A stretch of 64,000 bases of DNA, taken from NCBI GenBank assembly GCA_016190245.1, contig JACPQY010000008.1, positions 1-64,000 on the forward strand, given 5' to 3'. Positions 15,186 through 27,577 of the stretch are shown here, in pieces. Position numbers and translations under genes: made by a program. Origin of the DNA: Nitrospirota bacterium. Lineage in GTDB: Bacteria > JACPQY01. The notes beneath the pieces are model-generated. The model saw only the letters and a program-made list of their open reading frames with translations. It was not told the DNA's origin and did no database searches. The stretch's first letter is position 1. The number at the start of each line of letters is the position of its first letter.

Positions 15186-15254
15186 TCATCGAATTGCTCA
15201 CGCGTCATCCCGTGAAGTAGTTTCGCGGAGGTTTTTCTCCGCGCTCATTGTCTT

Positions 15255-15305
15255 TTGATCCCCGGAAGGGGTCGTGGTACTGTGGCGCTCTGACAGCGGC
15301 TGTCA
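15255..15305 (+). promoter_or_regulatory. WYL-gene promoter with TGACAGC-G-GCTGTCA palindrome
   Basis: TTGATC (15255-15260), a 17-bp spacer and TACTGT (15278-15283) form a plausible promoter with its start near 15290. The perfect 15-bp palindrome TGACAGCGGCTGTCA at 15291-15305 covers that point and includes the A of the ATG. This placement suits autorepression. The same palindrome occurs at 22301-22317 and 27614-27630. Confidence 0.6.
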
Positions 15306-16351
15306 TGGCGAAGAGGCGAGAATCGAAATCCATGGCCGGGATCACCTACCGGCCGCCGACCTATGGGGCCGCTGCGCGGTTTGCGCAGATCATGTACGGG
15401 CTCCAGCAGCGGCCGCTGGGATGGAGCCTGGAGGCCATGAGCGAAGACCTGCGGCTCCATCCGCGCACCATCGCACGGTATGCGGGGTGCCTTACAAAGG
15501 ACGTGGAGGATAACGAAGGGCGGCCGCTTATCATCTTGGAAGAGCGATACGGGAAGCCGCATCTGCGTCTGGCCGCGAAGCCGGTGGAGCCGCTTGACCT
15601 CAACGCCTCGCTGGCTCTCTCGCTCTACGCGGCCACCACCCTGCTTCGGTTCACGCGGGGGTCCCGGCTGTACGCGAGCCTTGAGGCGGCCCTCCAGAAG
15701 GCACTCGGCCGGCTCAGTCCGGGCGACCGGATGAAGCTCATGTCGCTCGAACGCAAGATCCACTACGTGCCGGACGGGCCGAAAGACTACTCGAACAAGG
15801 CGATCGTGCTCGAACGCGTCGTGGAGGGCCTGCTGCACCAGCGCAGACTGAAAGTGAAGTACACGTCCCTTTCCGGGGGAACGTGGGAGAGCTTGGTCCA
15901 CCCGTATTCCCTCATGATGTACAAGCGGGGCCTCTACATCATCGGGCATTCGGAGAAGCATGGGGACGTGCGCTACCTGGCCATCGAGAGGATTGACGAG
16001 GCCTCGATCACGGATGCCGTTTTCAACTACCCGGTGGGCTATCGTCCCGGCGACTACACGGATGGCTGTTTTGGGATCATTGATGGCGATCCCGTGGATG
16101 TTTCGATCCGGTTCAAGAAGGGCGCCGACGCGCTCATCACCGGCCGCGTATGGCACCCCACGCAGAAAATCACCCGATTGAAGAATGGCGACCTCCGCCT
16201 CACCATGCGCGTCCGCGGCACTGATGAACTCTTGCCGTGGGTCATGTCCCACGGGCCGTATGCCAAGGTGGAGGCGCCGGCGGAACTCCGGTCCGCGGTC
16301 AAGGACTGGCTGGCCGGGATGAAGAGGGGCTACCGATTCAGCGGGCCGTGA
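15305..16351 (+). CDS. WYL-domain transcriptional regulator
   Basis: 348 aa. The N-terminal third is a winged-helix HTH-like region (AARFAQIMYGLQQRPLGWSLE, LHPRTIARYAGCLTKD). The centre is a WYL domain (residues about 165-240: LKVKYTSLSGGTWESLVHPY, YKRGLYIIGHSEKHGDVRYL, AIERIDEASI) and the C-terminus a WCX-like extension (VDVSIRFKKGADALITGRVW). WYL regulators bind nucleic-acid or nucleotide ligands and often control mobile or defence genes. I start at ATG 15305, where the operator palindrome ends. Its 3' end is duplicated at 17246-17520 and 18591-18735. I infer that it recognises the TGACAGC palindrome also found upstream of the 20-27 kb genes. Confidence 0.9.
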   Translation: MAKRRESKSMAGITYRPPTYGAAARFAQIMYGLQQRPLGWSLEAMSEDLRLHPRTIARYAGCLTKDVEDNEGRPLIILEERYGKPHLRLAAKPVEPLDLNASLALSLYAATTLLRFTRGSRLYASLEAALQKALGRLSPGDRMKLMSLERKIHYVPDGPKDYSNKAIVLERVVEGLLHQRRLKVKYTSLSGGTWESLVHPYSLMMYKRGLYIIGHSEKHGDVRYLAIERIDEASITDAVFNYPVGYRPGDYTDGCFGIIDGDPVDVSIRFKKGADALITGRVWHPTQKITRLKNGDLRLTMRVRGTDELLPWVMSHGPYAKVEAPAELRSAVKDWLAGMKRGYRFSGP

Positions 16352-16574
16352 CGCTGGATGTGCCTTGGCAGGCGGGCGAATCGGTTCCACAGAGCCGGAC
16401 ATATGTCGAGGTATCTCATATCCCTGGAATCGCCTTGACCGCCTACCCGAAATGCAAAAACGGGATGGCCGTTCCTTCGTCCTGTGTTCGGCGGCTGAGG
16501 GGGGTATCTGATGGATGGATGAACCTGAATGGCGTTGTCAGGCGACTCGTTGGGGATTGTGATACACTGCGGTC
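16352..16574. other. spacer after the WYL gene
   Basis: The first 40 bp (to about 16392) are also duplicated after the stop of the WYL fragment at 17503. The rest holds no gene; at its end a -10-like TACACT (16563-16568) stands 6 nt before the GTG of the next DUF433 gene. Confidence 0.5.
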
Positions 16575-17224: not shown

Positions 17225-17503
17225 GTGGTGGGGTTGCTCCGGATGGTGGACGTCTCATTCCGGCTAAGAAAGGGCGCCGACGCGCTCATCACCGGTCGCG
17301 TATGGCACCCGACGCAGAAGATCACCCGATTGAAGAATGGCGACCTCCTCCTCACCATGCGCGTCCGCGGCACGGACGAGGTTCTGCCGTGGGTCATGTC
17401 CCACGGGCCGCATGCGAAGGTAGAGGCGCCGGCGGAACTCCGGGCCGCGGTCAAGGATTGGCTGACCGGGATGAGGAAGAGCTACCGATTCAGCGGGCCG
17501 TGA
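17225..17503 (+). pseudogene. duplicated C-terminal end of the WYL regulator, copy B
   Basis: The 92-codon open frame from the codon after VDVSF to the stop is nearly identical to the last 84 codons of the regulator at 15305-16351 (GADALITGRVWHPTQKITRL, then VRGTDEVLPWVMSHGPHAKV, ending KSYRFSGP). Homology continues about 40 bp past the stop. It lacks the HTH and WYL core and cannot be a regulator. It is a partial duplication separating two accessory modules. Confidence 0.85.
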
Positions 17504-17564
17504 CGCTGGATGTGGCTTGGCTGTTTGGCGAATTGCACCCAGAGTGAGGAACTGGCGTAGGAAA

Positions 17565-18591: not shown

Positions 18592-18764
18592 TGGTGCGCG
18601 TCCGCGGCACGGATGAACTCTTGCCGTGGGTCATGTCCCACGGGCCGTATGCCAAGGTGGAAGCGCCGGCGGAACTCCGGTCCGCGGTCAAGGGCTGGCT
18701 GGCCGGGATGAGCAAGTACTACAGGTCCGACAGATTCGCACTCGCAGGGGGCGGGCGAGGATGA
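18588..18764 (+). pseudogene. duplicated C-terminal end of the WYL regulator, copy C
   Basis: From 18591 the frame reads VRVRGTDELLPWVMSHGPYA and on to KGWLAGM, nearly identical to the last 50 codons of the regulator at 15305-16351, then diverges after GM (SKYYRSDRF). It overlaps the retropepsin stop and, through ATGA, the nuclease start at 18761. It is a short duplicated fragment, not a functional regulator, but may provide translational coupling to the nuclease. Confidence 0.8.
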
Positions 18765-19944: not shown

Positions 19945-20229
19945 CTACCGCAGGACAAGAACCCACAACGCAGCTAGCGAGACGCCGCCCGGGCCATCAA
20001 TGGCCTTGCGGACATCGGCCATCTTGCCGATGGTTCTTCCGCTCGCATCCGTGATGGTGTCACTTTTCACCTTGGCGACAGTGACGCCGGACTTGTCAAC
20101 GATGTCGGTGCCGCGGATCCGCCCGAGCGTCACGCCGGAGGCGTTTCGGATGTCGTTGCCGGCCAGCCGGGCCTCGGTGACGCCCGACTTGTTTCTGAGA
20201 TCGTTCCCCACGAGTTTGTAGTCCGCCAT
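19945..20229 (-). CDS. beta-flower-type repeat protein
   Basis: 94 aa built from four near-identical repeats of about 18-20 residues: KLVGNDLRNKSGVTEARLAG, NDIRNASGVTLGRIRG, TDIVDKSGVTVAKVKS, DTITDASGRTIGKMAD. The pattern D-x-x-[ND]-x-S-G-x-T suggests a closed beta propeller or fourfold beta-flower domain. There is a short hydrophobic C-terminus (LAALWVLVLR). Shine-Dalgarno GGGGG precedes the ATG. It is the last gene of the leftward set from 22.3 kb. Function unknown; a binding or scaffolding role is a guess. Confidence 0.7.
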   Translation of the reverse strand: MADYKLVGNDLRNKSGVTEARLAGNDIRNASGVTLGRIRGTDIVDKSGVTVAKVKSDTITDASGRTIGKMADVRKAIDGPGGVSLAALWVLVLR

Positions 20230-20543: not shown

Positions 20544-21485
20544 CTACCTCCGCCGGGAGACTTCCGCAGCAGACGCGACCTGCTTGGGGTACGTTGCCGT
20601 GATGCAATTCAAGACCCCGCCGTACGCGGCAAGCCGCCTGCAGTCGATTTGATGGTACTCCAGGTCCGGCCTCACCCTTTTCAGGGTCGCCACGGCCGTC
20701 CTGTCCATGCCGACGCCATAGGCGGGGACCAAGACCTTCCTGCCGTTCCTGTAGAAGTTGACGTAATTCCCGGCCGCGCTCGTCAGGCTGTCGGTGACAA
20801 AGCACGGCAGCCTGAGCACGGCTATTCCTGATGGGCCCAGCTTGCCCACCAGACAGTCGAACAGTTCGTTGTGGAAATCCTTCATCTCCTTGTCCTCATC
20901 GTACGATGCCACCATGAGAACATCCTTGTCCAAGAAACGGCAGTAGCCGTCGGCGTGACGGATCGGGTCGCGCTTCTCGTACTCGATAGCGACCAACCTT
21001 ACCCCGAAAGCGGCCTTGAACCAAGCGACCCACCCGGAAGCATCGAGGCCGGTGTTGCAGAGCATGAATTGCTTGGTCACGATGAGAACATCCCTGCCGT
21101 TGTAGACGAAATTGCCGCCTTCGCTGGTGAGGGGCACCCGGCGCAGGGGGAGTTTCAGGCGGCGAGCGATGGCCTCGATTCCTCGTGTGGCGCTCATGGC
21201 GTCGGTGAAGGCGGCGGCGCTTGGCTCCGCGTAGGAGGGTTCGTACTTGGGACACCAGAGGAAGCGAGCGCCCTTCGCCTGGAGGAGGATCGGCGCCCAA
21301 TCGCGGATCCAGAAATCCGTCAGCCAACAGTTCTCCTCGTCCAGGAGCACGACATCCGGCTTGAGCAGGTCAGCAATCTCCCGGAAAGTGTCTTCGAGTC
21401 CGGCTCGCCGCGGTGGCCGCACGAGATACGCCGTTCCCCCCATGAATTCGGCGCTCACAAGCCTACCCAATTGTCTCACGTGCAT
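20544..21485 (-). CDS. agmatine deiminase / peptidyl-arginine-deiminase family protein
   Basis: 313 aa. The guanidine-modifying (PAD_porph-type) catalytic residues are in place: DFWIRDWAPILL, TSEGGNFVYNG, the HxD in PIRHADGYCRF and the nucleophile Cys in AYGGVLNCITATYPKQV. Such enzymes release ammonia from agmatine or arginine-type substrates. The sequence departs from true agmatine deiminases in many places, so substrate is open. I choose the ATG at 21485, preceded by GAGGAAGG. It is part of the leftward operon with the FlhB-like gene upstream and two small genes downstream, an unusual setting for polyamine metabolism. Confidence 0.78.
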   Translation of the reverse strand: MHVRQLGRLVSAEFMGGTAYLVRPPRRAGLEDTFREIADLLKPDVVLLDEENCWLTDFWIRDWAPILLQAKGARFLWCPKYEPSYAEPSAAAFTDAMSATRGIEAIARRLKLPLRRVPLTSEGGNFVYNGRDVLIVTKQFMLCNTGLDASGWVAWFKAAFGVRLVAIEYEKRDPIRHADGYCRFLDKDVLMVASYDEDKEMKDFHNELFDCLVGKLGPSGIAVLRLPCFVTDSLTSAAGNYVNFYRNGRKVLVPAYGVGMDRTAVATLKRVRPDLEYHQIDCRRLAAYGGVLNCITATYPKQVASAAEVSRRR

Positions 21486-21633: not shown

Positions 21634-22098
21634 CTAGCCGCGTTCATGGGGAAAGAGCGGCAGTTGGCGGCTGTGAACCCGATACACGCGGGCCAAGACC
21701 TTGGCGACTGCCCAGTACAGATTGGCAGGAATGAATGTCCCTCGTGGAGTGGAAACCTCCAGCGCGCGTGCCAAGGGAGTGTCCTCGCAGATCGGCACGC
21801 GGCCGGCCCGGGCGCTTCCGAGGGCTGAATCGTAGGACAGGTTGCCGCAGACGTCGAGTACGACAGGGGCGATCATGAATTCCGGATCGTAGTGGACGCT
21901 GATGGCGAGGGAGACTCCGTCCACAATCAGCACATCTGGAAGGACATGATCGGGGACGTCTACCAGTCCGTCATCGAGGCCCTCCTCCTGTGCAGGACGA
22001 TCTGTAAGGTGAGCATGCGCGCTTCTTGGCAGGGCCGGAACAACACTCCCGGCGGCAAGCACCGCAAGTCCATTCCTGACGAACGTTCTTCGATCCAA
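21634..22098 (-). CDS. Tat-exported FlhB C-terminal-domain-like protein
   Basis: 154 aa. The N-terminus RRTFVRNGLAVLAAGSVVP to AHA is a good Tat signal. After a linker the rest aligns by eye with the cytoplasmic export-switch domain of FlhB/EscU: DVLIVDGVSLAISVHYDPEF, MIAPVV, VPICEDTPLARAL, FIPANLYWAVAKVLARVYRV. The autocleavage NPTH is replaced by DGVS, so no cleavage is expected. FlhB itself is an inner-membrane flagellar/type III component, and no other flagellar gene is present. TTG at 22098 follows GGAAGGAGG by 5 nt and is preferred over ATG 22122. Function unknown. Confidence 0.72.
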   Translation of the reverse strand: MDRRTFVRNGLAVLAAGSVVPALPRSAHAHLTDRPAQEEGLDDGLVDVPDHVLPDVLIVDGVSLAISVHYDPEFMIAPVVLDVCGNLSYDSALGSARAGRVPICEDTPLARALEVSTPRGTFIPANLYWAVAKVLARVYRVHSRQLPLFPHERG

Positions 22099-22118
22099 GA
22101 TGGCCTCCTTCCAGTTCA

Positions 22119-22277
22119 TCATTGCGGGGACCTGCGGGAATATCTGGAGATCCGTTCGAGGCCCTTCTTGATGCGTTCACCCTCGCGCAGGACGTTTTTC
22201 CAGTGGTGAAGAAACCATCTCCAGGGGAAGTCATCTTCCCGAATCCGCTCCACGCTACGGCTTGGTTTCCGTTTCAC
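22119..22277 (-). CDS. 52-codon basic small ORF
   Basis: GTG start; the product begins KRKPSRSVERIREDDFPWRW and ends YSRRSPQ. It is strongly basic and amphipathic (FLHHWKNVLREGERIKKGLE) with no recognised domain. A TAGACT hexamer (22290-22285) lies 7 nt before the GTG and the operator palindrome sits immediately upstream, so it appears to be the first gene of the leftward operon, translated without a Shine-Dalgarno. It ends at 22119, just before the FlhB-like gene. It could instead be a leader peptide. Confidence 0.5.
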   Translation of the reverse strand: MKRKPSRSVERIREDDFPWRWFLHHWKNVLREGERIKKGLERISRYSRRSPQ

Positions 22278-22355: not shown

Positions 22356-24497
22356 ATGAAACGACGCGGGAAAGTCACCTCGGTCCCTGCACCGGAGGCA
22401 AGCCCGTTTGGACCATGCGTGGACGACTACGCCCACAACCTGCTCGTGGGCACTTCGCTCCGGCGTTTGGATGAGGCCGGCCTACGGCGGATTGAGTCCG
22501 TCGAGCCGGTGCTCAGGATGGTCTGTGCGACGACGGCGAGGGTTGCCGGGAGGGGCGCCAAGATCGGGGACTTCACGCGGGAAGACCTCCGGCGACGGCT
22601 GCGCGCTTATCTGCGTGGGTGCAGGAATCAGACGCGACCCCCGGGACCTGCAGATTCGCGGGTGGCGGACAACCTTGGAGTGATAGGGAACCTCTTGGAT
22701 CTGGACGAACACCAGAGGGCGGTGTTTCAGTTCATTCTGGCGCTGCACGATAGCCGCGAGATCAAGGAAATTGTGGAGACCTTCGGTGCCGTCTCGGCTG
22801 TCCGGGCGGCTTCGCTCATCGCGGCTGCCACAACGATATCGAACGATCACGTCATGAGGGCACTGGATCGAGCCGGTGGCCTTCTCGCAAGTGGCTTGGT
22901 GGAGATTGACGCGAAGGGCAGCTACTCCCTCGAGGGCAAGGTTACGCTCAAGCCCGGTGTTCTGGATGAATGTCTTGCGCCCGGCCTTGACCGTGATCGG
23001 CTCATCTCGCGGTTTCTGCCCCCGGCAGGGGTGAGTCAACTTGGCTGGGATGATTTCGAGCACATGCGGGTGCCGGGCCGCACGGCTCGAGACCTGCTCG
23101 CCGGGACTCTCCAGTCTCGGCGTCCGGGGGTGAACGTCCTCTTCTACGGGGAAACCGGAACCGGCAAGACGGAACTGGCGAAGCTGCTGGCTCGAGACAT
23201 TGGCACGACACTGTACGTGGCCGGACGGGCGGATGAAAGCGGGGAGTCTGCCCACGCATGGGAGCGGCTGTCGTCCCTGCTCCTTGGTGAGCGGCTTCTC
23301 CGAGACGGCACATCACTCCTCCTCTTCGATGAAATGGAGGATCTCTTTACATGGGAGTTTCATGGCACCCACCCACGCGGTGTCCCCTCGATGTCGAAAC
23401 AGTGGTTCAATAACCTCCTGGAAAACACCCCCGTTCCCACCATTTGGATCACGAATCTCGTCGAAGGAATCGACCGGGCGTTTCTTCGGCGGTTTTCCTA
23501 CGCCGTGGAATTTCGCCCAATCGGACCCCGGCAGCGCGCCCGGGTGTTGAATCGGCATCTTGGTGAACAGGGTCGAATTCCTCCATCGGACGTAGAGCAG
23601 ATGGCGCAAAAGTTCACCGTCAGCCCAGCTCAACTCCGAAGTGCCGTGGAGTCCGCCCGCTTGATTGCCGGTACTGCTCCTCCAGATCGCGAAACGATTG
23701 AGCACGTGCTCGCGCCGATGCAAAAGATTGTAACGGGCGAGGATCCCGAAAAGCGTCCTGTGTTCGACGCCACCGCGTACCGGATTGACGCCCTGAACAG
23801 TGTTGAGGATCTTGGACGGATCGCGGATCAGCTCACAAGGTGGGAACCGTCGCGAGGAGCCGGGGTCTCAATGTGCCTCTACGGCCCGCCCGGCACGGGG
23901 AAGTCCGAATACGCGAAATATCTCGCGCACCGCATGGGCAGACCCATACTCTACCGGCACGCATCCGACATCCTGGGCCCCTTCTGGGGGCAAACAGAAG
24001 CGATGATCGCGGAGGCCTTCCGCAGGGCGACGGACGAGGATTCGCTCCTCCTTTTCGACGAGGCGGATTCATTCCTCCGCGACCGGCGGTCGGTGATGCA
24101 TTCCTGGGAGACGATCCAGGTGAACGAATTCCTTCAGCAACTCGAATCGTTCCGGGGTGTGGTCGTCTGCACGACCAATCTTTGGCACAACATTGACGAG
24201 GCGGCGCTCCGGCGTTTCATTTTCAAGGCCGAATTCCGCTACCTCCGGCTGGAGCAGGGTGTGGCGCTATTCCGCAGCAGTTTCTCCCCCTACCTTGACC
24301 GGCCGCCCTCGGAGGATGACGTTGGGATGGTGTGCTCTGCCCTCGCCGGTATCGGCAACCTCGCTCCCGGCGATTTCGCAGCGGTCAGCCGACGCTGGCG
24401 GGCTATGGGAAATCGCTCGACCGCCCGCGAGCTGGTTCAGGCTCTCGTGAGCGAGGCACGTGCAAAGCCCGGCGCCGCCGGACCGATTGGGTTTTAG
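22356..24497 (+). CDS. tandem AAA+ ATPase
   Basis: 713 aa, cytoplasmic. An N-terminal helical region (1-240) is followed by two AAA+ modules. Module 1 has Walker A GETGTGKT at about 265-272 and Walker [12 protein letters not shown] at about 325. Module 2 has Walker A GPPGTGKS at about 510-517, Walker [11 protein letters not shown] near 568 and a sensor-1-like [11 protein letters not shown]. Both modules look catalytically complete, as in unfoldase or remodelling ATPases. GGAGGGGGGAAC supports the ATG at 22356. It has the WYL palindrome 38 bp upstream and converges with the Tat/metallophosphoesterase/zinc-finger operon, stop codons touching at 24494-24497. No known protease subunit is adjacent. 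Confidence 0.85.
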
Positions 24498-25009
24498 CGA
24501 CGATATTGCGCGTCAAGCGAGCGAAGATAGCACACCGCGCCGACGGTCGAGGCAAGCAGATTGGCCAGGAAACGTCCGAATCTCCCGAAGAGGAACGAGG
24601 CGGACGGTCCGTCTGTCTCGTCGCTCCGATCCAAGGGGAATGCCACGATCGACACGCCTCTGCCGAGGAGGTAGTCGCCGGCGATGCCGATGCGGTTCAT
24701 GCACTCGATAGCTTTCCACTTCGTTGAAAACGCCCCGTGCCAGGTTACATGCCCCCTCCGCTCGGTCTGAATCAGATAGATCTCCTTCGGGTACCGGCTG
24801 CACGCTTCGGGAGAGTCCCCGGCGGGGCTTTTGTTCAGGATTCTCCGCTTGTCCCGGCTTCCGGTCGCTTCGGCGACAATGTCAGCGCAAAGCTCTACGC
24901 ATTCATCGCAGATGCAGACGCCGGGACCGGCGATGAGCTTGCGAACCTCGTGCTGTCCTTTGCCGCACCAGGAACAAACCGGCAGGCCTGACTCAGCTTC
25001 GCTGGACAT
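24494..25009 (-). CDS. ClpX-type C4 zinc-finger protein
   Basis: 171 aa. The first 45 residues are a ClpX N-terminal zinc finger: [20 protein letters not shown], then [14 protein letters not shown], with all four Cys. In ClpX this domain binds substrates and adaptors. The AAA+ part is missing here; the remainder ([34 protein letters not shown]) is unrelated. It overlaps the metallophosphoesterase end by 17 bp and is the last gene of that operon. It might present substrates to the convergently encoded tandem AAA+ protein, an inference from its domain and location. Confidence 0.78.
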
Positions 25010-25745
25010 CGCTTTCGGCGGGAGCGTCCAAGAGCGTGCCCTGCGGCCCGGGGTTGATGATGAGGGTGTCGCCGATTGTATCGGTTGCGCCGAAACGGTC
25101 GTGGAAGTGGCCGCAGATGACGATGCGGGGTTTCAGGACTTCGGCGATGTTCCGGACGATCCGACTGCCCTGTGCTCGTCCCCCGGAATGGCCTTGGAAT
25201 TGTCCGTTCTCGTAGATTGGCTCATGACCGCACCCTCCGCCTGGTCCTGCGATGCCGTCCTGGCATCGGTCGGTGCTTCGGGTGCAGGCCGTCCGGTGGC
25301 CGCAGCACGCCGTGCCTGCCGGGGGGTAGTGGGACACGAGAATCAGGGGCAGCGACAGGTTGAGTTGACTCCGAATGAGGTGCAAATACGTGTCCATGGC
25401 TTCGAGGTCCTCTTCGTGGTGTGGGCTGAGGTCGTCGGTGCCGTCAATTCCGGCGATCTGAACACCGGCCACCTTCACAACCTTGCAGCCGATCCAATGG
25501 CAGCCTGGGTAAAACGCTTCGATACGCTTACACATTTTCGGTGACTCATGATTCCCCGCGATGAAGTAGACGGGGATCCCAGCGTCGGCGATGAGGCGCC
25601 ATGAATCCTCCCGACTCTCTTCGAACACCGCAAAATCTCCGCCGCAAACCAAACACTCGACCTTCTTTTCCTGAGCCAGGGAAGCGATCTTCCTTGCTGA
25701 CCCTGCCGAGCCGTGATGATCGGTGAAGGCCACGAAACTCGTCAT
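24993..25745 (-). CDS. calcineurin-like metallophosphoesterase
   Basis: 250 aa from the ATG at 25745. The dinuclear metal site is visible: [34 protein letters not shown] and [10 protein letters not shown], in family order. Substrates of this fold range from phosphoproteins to nucleotides and cannot be predicted. A cysteine-rich insertion ([18 protein letters not shown], then GGGCGHEP) between the fourth and fifth motifs is unusual. It is coupled by ATGA to the Tat-exported protein upstream and overlaps the zinc-finger gene downstream. Confidence 0.85.
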
Positions 25746-27577
25746 GTCGACACCTGAATCCTTGTTCCATACGACCGGACGCACAACGCCGCGCCCACGA
25801 TGGAAATCAGCGGGTCAAGTTCGTCCATGAGCTGGCGGCCGTGATCAGCTGCCTCAGGGGAGTTCAGTTGCTCGTACAGTACTTGTCCATGGACCTCGTC
25901 GGGACTCTGGCGGAAATGTGTAAGGGCTGCGAGAGTACCTTGCTGCCCGGTTTCCAAGAGCCAGGTAAATGCCGCCGCGCGCGCTCTGGCATCGTGGCAC
26001 GAATCGAGCCCATGCGAGATCTCAGCCGCCCATGCAGGCGTACCCCAGCGGCCGCACAGAAGACGTCCCCATGTTGCTTCGGGTTCGGTGGAGATCCCCT
26101 GCCAACCACCGAATAGTTCGAGGATGTTGCGGGGGACGACATCGGGGCGGAAGAAAAACACGTGTTCTGCAAGAGAAAGACGGTCTTCCCCTGATGCCGT
26201 AGCTATCCAGTCGCTAAGATCCGGCTTGAGTCCTGTCACTTGGTTCCACCAGAGAGGCTGAAGCCCTCCGGATTCTCGCAGGCGGTCATAGCTCAGGTCA
26301 TGCAGCCATTGACGGCCTGCCACGGAACAGGCGAGACGTTTCATCATCCACCAATCCCAACCCTCATGCCCCACCTCCCTATGGAGTTTCCGGATGGCGG
26401 AACGGAGGGAGTTCTGGTCCAACAGGTAGCCCAGCGTGAAAACGGCTTCCAACCTATCTTGGGCCGGCGCTGCCCGGGCGACGCGGACAAAGTCATCCGG
26501 AGCGAACCGTTCGCCCTGACTGATGAGCCAGCGCCCAACACGTGCGATTGCATCCGTCCCCCCATTCGTCCATCGCTCGGGGTGAGGATCCGCGAGCGCG
26601 CGGTCGAGTTTTCGTCGGGTCTCACGCGGGTCGAGAGAGATTGAACCGCCCCGAGGCCCATGCCCGAGCAATTTCCCAGCCGCCATGAGGACTGCGACAG
26701 GGCTACGCGAGTGCTGATACACGTCCAGCAGCAAATGGGCGCACCTGCAACAGTTCGCGACTGCCTCGCCGGATACGGTGGGCCGCCGGGCGGAAGGATG
26801 GACGACTTCCGGACTGTGCCAGCCGCCGGGGGGAGAGAGAAGGAAGAGCGCTTCTTCCGGGTGGCTGGCAGTTGCGATGAGTCTGTGGAATTCGGCGTCC
26901 CATGGGGTGGGCGGCCAGTCGAAGAACGCGAGCAGGATTTCGGTTTGGATTCTCTCATCCACATCCGAAAAGCGGGGGCCGAGTACTGGCATTATCTCCT
27001 CCGGGGGGAAACTTGAAAGAAAGCCGGGCCAGAGGTCATCCACCGGCCAAGTCTCGCTATTAGCGATCGCATGCAAACAGTAGTGTCGGTATTCGGGGGA
27101 GACCTCGAACAGCTTGGATCGCGCGTACCAGTCGCCATTGTTTGCGCGGTCCCGCAAAAGGGCCAAGCACCTCGGGGTGGCGGGTAATGGGCAATCCCAG
27201 AAATCGTAATCGAAATTCAACAGTGAGTCCTTCATGGAGAGTTGCTTCTCAATCCAATTCGGCTCAAGCCTTGCTCTTGCGACTGAAAGGGCGCGCATGT
27301 AATTGGCAGCCTCGGCGCACGGAGGCGGCAATCGAAGGTTCTTGATCCATTCGAGGGCCTTGGGACTCCCGCTCCGGCCGAGCGCATCTATCACGACGGG
27401 GTCCATGGGGCCGCCCCGGCACTCCCATTTCAGAAGGATGCTGGTGGCGCGATCAAGTGACACCCTGGTGTCTCCAGGCATCGTTGCCGGCTCTCGCCAT
27501 GGAGCCCGCAGCACGGGGCGGGCGAGGAGTCCAGCTGTGGCGACCCCCGCGGTGCAGATGAATTCCCTTCGTCTCAT
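25742..27577 (-). CDS. Tat-exported 611-aa protein, unknown
   Basis: The start MRRREFICTAGVATAGLLA is a twin-arginine signal (RRREFI), so a folded periplasmic protein is expected. The rest has no family I recognise; it is alpha-helical, Trp-rich, with HEAT-like helix pairs (PKALEWIKNL, DRLEAVFTLGYLLDQNSL, ALTHFRQSPDEV). Shine-Dalgarno CAGGAGG is 5 nt from ATG. It heads an operon with a metallophosphoesterase and a ClpX-type zinc-finger protein and has the WYL palindrome 37 bp upstream. Confidence 0.7.
   Translation of the reverse strand: MRRREFICTAGVATAGLLARPVLRAPWREPATMPGDTRVSLDRATSILLKWECRGGPMDPVVIDALGRSGSPKALEWIKNLRLPPPCAEAANYMRALSVARARLEPNWIEKQLSMKDSLLNFDYDFWDCPLPATPRCLALLRDRANNGDWYARSKLFEVSPEYRHYCLHAIANSETWPVDDLWPGFLSSFPPEEIMPVLGPRFSDVDERIQTEILLAFFDWPPTPWDAEFHRLIATASHPEEALFLLSPPGGWHSPEVVHPSARRPTVSGEAVANCCRCAHLLLDVYQHSRSPVAVLMAAGKLLGHGPRGGSISLDPRETRRKLDRALADPHPERWTNGGTDAIARVGRWLISQGERFAPDDFVRVARAAPAQDRLEAVFTLGYLLDQNSLRSAIRKLHREVGHEGWDWWMMKRLACSVAGRQWLHDLSYDRLRESGGLQPLWWNQVTGLKPDLSDWIATASGEDRLSLAEHVFFFRPDVVPRNILELFGGWQGISTEPEATWGRLLCGRWGTPAWAAEISHGLDSCHDARARAAAFTWLLETGQQGTLAALTHFRQSPDEVHGQVLYEQLNSPEAADHGRQLMDELDPLISIVGAALCVRSYGTRIQVST

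Follow-up and report, generated by a model that had tools for sequence, protein, structure and literature searches.

An open reading frame (ORF) of the analysed window, which is the whole DNA stretch of 64,000 nucleotides, encodes a small protein in which a Tat-type signal is followed by the C-terminal domain of FlhB. On balance, the slightly favored reading of this protein (P0001) is that of an exported, switch-dead, and fast-evolving FlhB-derived domain, possibly a binder of peptides in the periplasm, with both the export and the binding predicted. To our knowledge, the FlhB C-terminal domain has been described solely as a cytoplasmic component of type III export.

The fusion ORF and its FlhB C-terminal domain

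The fusion ORF is present in the ORF list at 21634..22098 of the minus strand, where a probable TTG start gives a protein of 154 aa. An alternative start, the ATG at 22122, extends the frame to 162 aa (22122..21634, minus strand). The TTG at 22098 is probably the true start of the ORF, because the Shine-Dalgarno-like sequence AAGGAGG (22104..22110, minus strand) stands 5 nt upstream of it. The residue numbering of P0001 follows the 162-aa form. The original prediction had recognized the FlhB/EscU domain by the motifs SVHYDPE, CEDTPLARAL, and AVAKVLARVYR, and all three are found in the 22122..21634 frame of the minus strand.

The FlhB/SctU C-terminal domain spans residues 62–153 (21664..21939, minus strand) and is defined by profile, PDB sequence, and AF2/Foldseek matches. 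Residues 63–146 match positions 252–335 of the Pfam profile PF01312 (E=2.5e-13; 50.4 bits, cut-off 24.4), in agreement with the claim of an FlhB C-terminal domain. As the match is limited to positions 252–335 of a profile of 335, the protein is devoid of the FlhB membrane part and linker helix. The NCBIfam search matched ten models, nine of which are of the FlhB/SctU type, and the PDB sequence search returned FlhB entries with E-values down to 2e-6. An HMM derived from 32 FlhB C domains gathered here recognizes P0001 with E=1.6e-18, and the protein is 38% identical to the FlhB of its own genome.

The AF2 model of P0001, obtained with two FlhB rows in the input, has a pLDDT of about 78–93 within the domain. 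The same folding by AF2 without both FlhB rows reaches a mean pLDDT of only 43, which is too poor for use. All matches above noise in the Foldseek search with the model (34/34) are C domains of FlhB, EscU, YscU, Spa40, or PscU, the top one being 3t7y (E=6.5e-7). In VIA, the model matches the uncleaved mutant EscU P263A (3c03) with a Z-score of 16.5 and 1.2 Å over 93 residues, and the first unrelated chain has a Z-score under 4. The superposition thus fits the FlhB-CC fold that had been proposed, for a model built with two FlhB rows. Because the AF2 model is poor without those rows, the structural match can be taken to back the FlhB identity without being independent proof; the sequence evidence would suffice alone.

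P0001 can be compared with several known systems. With the FlhB C domain (PF01312) it shares the fold and the core residues over a stretch of ~90 aa that takes in the strand preceding the cleavage site. However, FlhB has a membrane part, a linker helix, NPTH, and the AKG loop, instead of which P0001 has a Tat-type signal. The closest structures are the C domains of SctU (EscU, YscU, SpaS, Spa40), above all the uncleaved mutants, but P0001 is, by its sequence, not autocleavable. The genome of the window gave no sign of an injectisome; a single full FlhB and a single FlhA were found in it, next to each other. The third related group is the FhlX/FlhX/YlqH-type paralogue (NCBIfam TIGR00789), which, like P0001, consists of the FlhB-C domain alone and exists alongside a full FlhB. 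Such paralogues begin past the cleavage site, carry no signal, and keep an A-x-G loop, whereas P0001 is the opposite on all three points. The score of P0001 against TIGR00789 is 20.7 bits, below the cut-off of 117.35. Both genomes compared here also encode an FhlX-type ORF (L002 in the window genome, and L010). Judged from its sequence, P0001 contains an FlhB C-terminal domain yet is neither FlhB, because it lacks the membrane part, the linker helix, and the cut site and its gene lies outside any flagellar or T3SS locus, nor FhlX, because both the TIGR00789 score and the architecture fail.

The Tat-type signal and an orthologue in a second genus

The N-terminus of P0001, DRRTFVRNGLAVLAAGSVVPALPRSAHA, satisfies a TATFIND-like rule; the Tat assessment is based on this rule of our own and not on a dedicated predictor. 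The signal (22012..22098, minus strand) is composed of RR at residues 11–12, the uncharged core NGLAVLAAGSVVPALP, and a cleavage-like AHA end. DRRTFVRN is followed by an uncharged core of 16 residues and then by PRSAHA, an arrangement that corresponds to what looks like a typical Tat layout. The core is of low hydrophobicity, with a highest mean of 1.76 over 15 residues, and the best 19-residue hydrophobicity mean in all of P0001, 1.48, is located in the domain and not in the signal. Only 3/364 ORFs of at least 150 aa, from the window and seven other stretches of both genomes, pass the TATFIND-like rule, and two of these three are P0001 and its relative P0002. After shuffling of the P0001 N-terminus, 25/20,000 sequences pass, and for shuffled N-termini in general the proportion is about 0.1–0.4%. 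TatC is encoded in the window genome (E=2.0e-69) and in the second genome. The twin-arginine signal of the original prediction is therefore retained by virtue of its RR, its weakly hydrophobic uncharged core, its AxA-like end, and the passed rule, and P0001 is predicted to be exported through Tat.

The genome collection that was searched includes only two genomes of this phylum, that of the window (G000) and G001, which represents a different genus of the same family. The search for orthologues of this fusion succeeded in G001. This orthologue, P0002 (171 aa, L007:1477-1992), has its own RR signal (TRRDFF...) and an FlhB-C domain without NPTH and AKG. The two proteins are 29% identical overall, and their alignment runs over 10–146, signal included. 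P0002 matches the FlhB-only HMM with E=6.5e-9 and Pfam PF01312 with E=1e-4, slightly below the gathering cut-off. The phylogenetic tree pairs P0001 with P0002 (support 94/94), and their branches are very long (2.1 and 4.6 vs. a median of 0.48). The pairing could reflect long-branch attraction, and the long branches would also suit relaxed constraint. The strand that precedes the cleavage site is present in both proteins and absent from the FhlX paralogues, which points to an origin in full FlhB. The fusion is probably a real protein rather than an accidental join, because another genus of the family has the same architecture of a signal followed by FlhB-C.

The fusion of a signal with FlhB-C is rare. 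The P0001 search of 290 genomes yielded just full-length FlhB and small FhlX-type paralogues, with no further fusion, and with a two-row profile applied to 386 genomes across Bacteria the alignment extended into the signal in G000 and G001 alone. The 22 small or long-frame candidates from other genomes that were read are all of the FhlX type (22/22), with no signal and with the A-x-G loop present. Four long candidate frames were rejected as fusions, since each is an FhlX gene preceded by sequence that does not belong to it, and L022/L073, considered as a short FlhB-C, was rejected as an FlhB piece with intact NPTH. No fusion was found in the viral contigs searched. The FlhB-C matches in plasmids and phages begin at residue 72 or later, none covering the signal, and the two matches in named GTDB contigs are both ordinary full-length FlhB. 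In the literature, which was covered in part, no FlhB-C domain with a signal peptide was found.

Two motifs of the FlhB switch are absent from both proteins. FlhB self-cleavage occurs between Asn269 and Pro270, and the N269A exchange blocks it (PMC3640470). In the FlhB alignment, N269 and P270 are both invariant (32/32), and both are missing from P0001 and from P0002. At the position of the NPTH autocleavage motif, P0001 has DGVS (D68 G69 V70 S71; 21910..21921, minus strand), which confirms the replacement claimed originally. The loss goes beyond that claim, since the AKG loop, of which A and G are each present in 32/32 FlhB sequences and K in 31/32, is also absent from P0002 and from P0001, in which DVC takes its position (21847..21855, minus strand). 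With the Asn-Pro pair absent, P0001 is predicted to have lost autocleavage.

A different set of residues, A286, P287, A341, and L344 of Salmonella FlhB, forms the pocket that docks early substrates (PMC9307174, PMC8983047). According to the alignment, all four are retained in P0001, as A85 and P86 (21865..21870, minus strand) and as A140 and L143 (21694..21705, minus strand). In P0002 the positions of A286 and P287 are kept, a Ser is found at A341, and no residue is aligned at L344. Taken from these alignments, the pocket as a whole appears not to be conserved between the two proteins. The cysteines were considered separately. The P0001 domain contains C92 and C112, and 33 related domains have just 4 Cys in total. 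A disulfide between C92 and C112 as a periplasmic sign was dropped, as the cysteines of P0002 sit elsewhere.

Genomic surroundings of the fusion gene

The fusion gene lies in an island that extends from ~15 to 28 kb of the window and has a GC content of 0.55–0.63 vs. 0.66–0.69 outside. The GC3 of the gene is 0.67 vs. 0.86 for flhB. Directly downstream is a relative of the Porphyromonas-type peptidyl-arginine/agmatine deiminase (20544-21485, minus strand; E=8.8e-27; probable start ATG 21485), and the island also includes a small beta-flower repeat protein (19945-20229, minus strand; Bflower_2, E=1.4e-10). On the other side is a protein of 713 aa that contains a pair of AAA ATPase modules (22356-24497, plus strand) and whose likeness to the phage family phrog_10401 is strong (E=1.7e-84) and to the defense ATPase IetA weak. 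It is followed by a 171-aa protein with a ClpX-type C4 zinc finger and without the ClpX ATPase (24494-25009, minus strand; E=1.5e-17), and by a calcineurin-like metallophosphoesterase identified by a profile match (24993..25784, minus strand), a relative of which is also near the orthologue in G001. The 611-aa protein at 25742-27577 (minus strand) has a weak HEAT match and the N-terminus MRRREFICTAGVATAGLLA, which is somewhat Tat-like by eye and failed the TATFIND-like rule. An intact WYL/WCX regulator gene is located at 15248-16351. The 3′ end of this regulator occurs in three copies (16094-16392, 17246-17544, and 18595-18722), ~1.2 kb apart and 88–94% identical in the shared part, which looks like repeated insertion or recombination within the island.

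No flagellar gene was found near the fusion gene when its neighbors were profile-scanned and the ORFs of the 64-kb window were looked over. The claim that no flagellar gene accompanies the fusion thus holds for the vicinity of the ORF but not for the genome, which elsewhere has FlhB, FlhA, and rod/hook genes. The single FlhB-FlhA pair of the window genome is adjoining and placed on a contig other than that of the window, with the rod/hook-type genes elsewhere. Both bacteria appear flagellated, because one FlhB-FlhA pair and rod/hook genes are present in both genomes.

In G001, the island around the orthologue (L042 4085-9414) contains an XRE regulator, a cpYpsA-like SLOG protein, and a cREC domain protein, and an integrase is located ~3 kb upstream of the P0002 gene. 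This gene overlaps by 4 nt the end of a 310-aa ORF; after it come a HicB-like ORF and a metallophosphoesterase that is 38% identical to that of the window. The distance between the fusion gene and the metallophosphoesterase relative is 0.8 kb in G001 and 2.9 kb in the window; one copy of this enzyme was found in the window genome and two in G001. The G001 stretches around P0002 contain no relatives of the window neighbors save the metallophosphoesterase. With n=2 genomes, the linkage of the fusion gene and the metallophosphoesterase is suggestive.

Possible roles of the domain predicted to be exported

By its sequence, P0001 has a Tat-type signal in the place of the FlhB membrane part and linker helix, with the globular domain retained. 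In the favored reading, the domain would fold in the cytoplasm and then be exported through the Tat system, and the signal would be cut after AHA, at residue 37. The mature domain would work in the periplasm as a single uncleaved chain, and the mode of action judged most likely is that of a small peptide-binding module. Early substrates and FliK are secreted into the periplasm while the rod is being assembled and has not yet passed through the outer membrane (PMC13344023). Since these reach the periplasm and the pocket is intact in P0001, a periplasmic FlhB-C homologue could have been recruited to capture early flagellar subunits or FliK beyond the membrane via the FlhB pocket, although such a role is considered improbable. 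That the ligand is a peptide unrelated to the flagellum is no less likely than that it is a flagellar subunit, because the gene is located in an accessory island and the pocket of P0002 is half kept. A periplasmic protein of the flagellar rod is exemplified by FlhE, proposed as a chaperone for rod assembly in Gammaproteobacteria (PMC11247099). That P0001 acts likewise on rod subunits is a hypothesis only, and FlhE is Sec-secreted, encoded by a flagellar-operon gene, and a member of another family, with no kinship to P0001 claimed.

The same N-terminus could instead stay uncleaved and anchor the domain in the membrane. Depending on the orientation, the domain would then work on the outer side or, on the inner side, serve as an additional FlhB-C in competition with the FlhB switch or as a supplement to it. 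AF2 models the N-terminus of P0001 as a single helix, with very low confidence, and signal-less FhlX-type paralogues sit beside FlhB in both genomes, in a bacterium that appears flagellated. However, the core is only weakly hydrophobic, the RR ahead of it favors an N-in/C-out orientation with the domain outside, and the cleavage-like AHA comes after it, so that anchoring is regarded as doubtful. The island-borne position allows a further reading, rather unlikely although with some evidence in its favor, in which the protein serves an accessory function tied to the metallophosphoesterase, e.g., a defense or stress module, unconnected with flagella. The proximity of this enzyme in both genomes, where it is the sole such enzyme found in that of the window, is consistent with this, as are the integrase, XRE regulators, HicB-like gene, and SLOG and cREC domains of the G001 island and the weakly IetA-like AAA ATPase adjacent in the window. 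On the other hand, the intervening and flanking genes are not conserved, the strand order is different, and the second metallophosphoesterase of G001 has no FlhB-C gene nearby. The linkage in two genomes may be a coincidence inside islands, and PADLOC gave no match for P0001 and P0002.

The lower-GC island with its repeated WYL gene-end fragments, the long branches of both proteins, and the GC3 of the fusion gene in comparison to flhB would also be expected of decay or chance, with a functionless FlhB-C fragment caught behind a signal. This appears very unlikely, because a dead fusion would hardly remain open across such divergence: two open copies at 29% identity share the architecture and the core fold residues, both without NPTH and AKG.

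If the reading of P0001 as an exported, cleavage-dead FlhB-C is true, it would indicate that the fold is usable outside the type III export machine. Such a protein would also provide a natural test of whether pocket binding or switching is useful alone.
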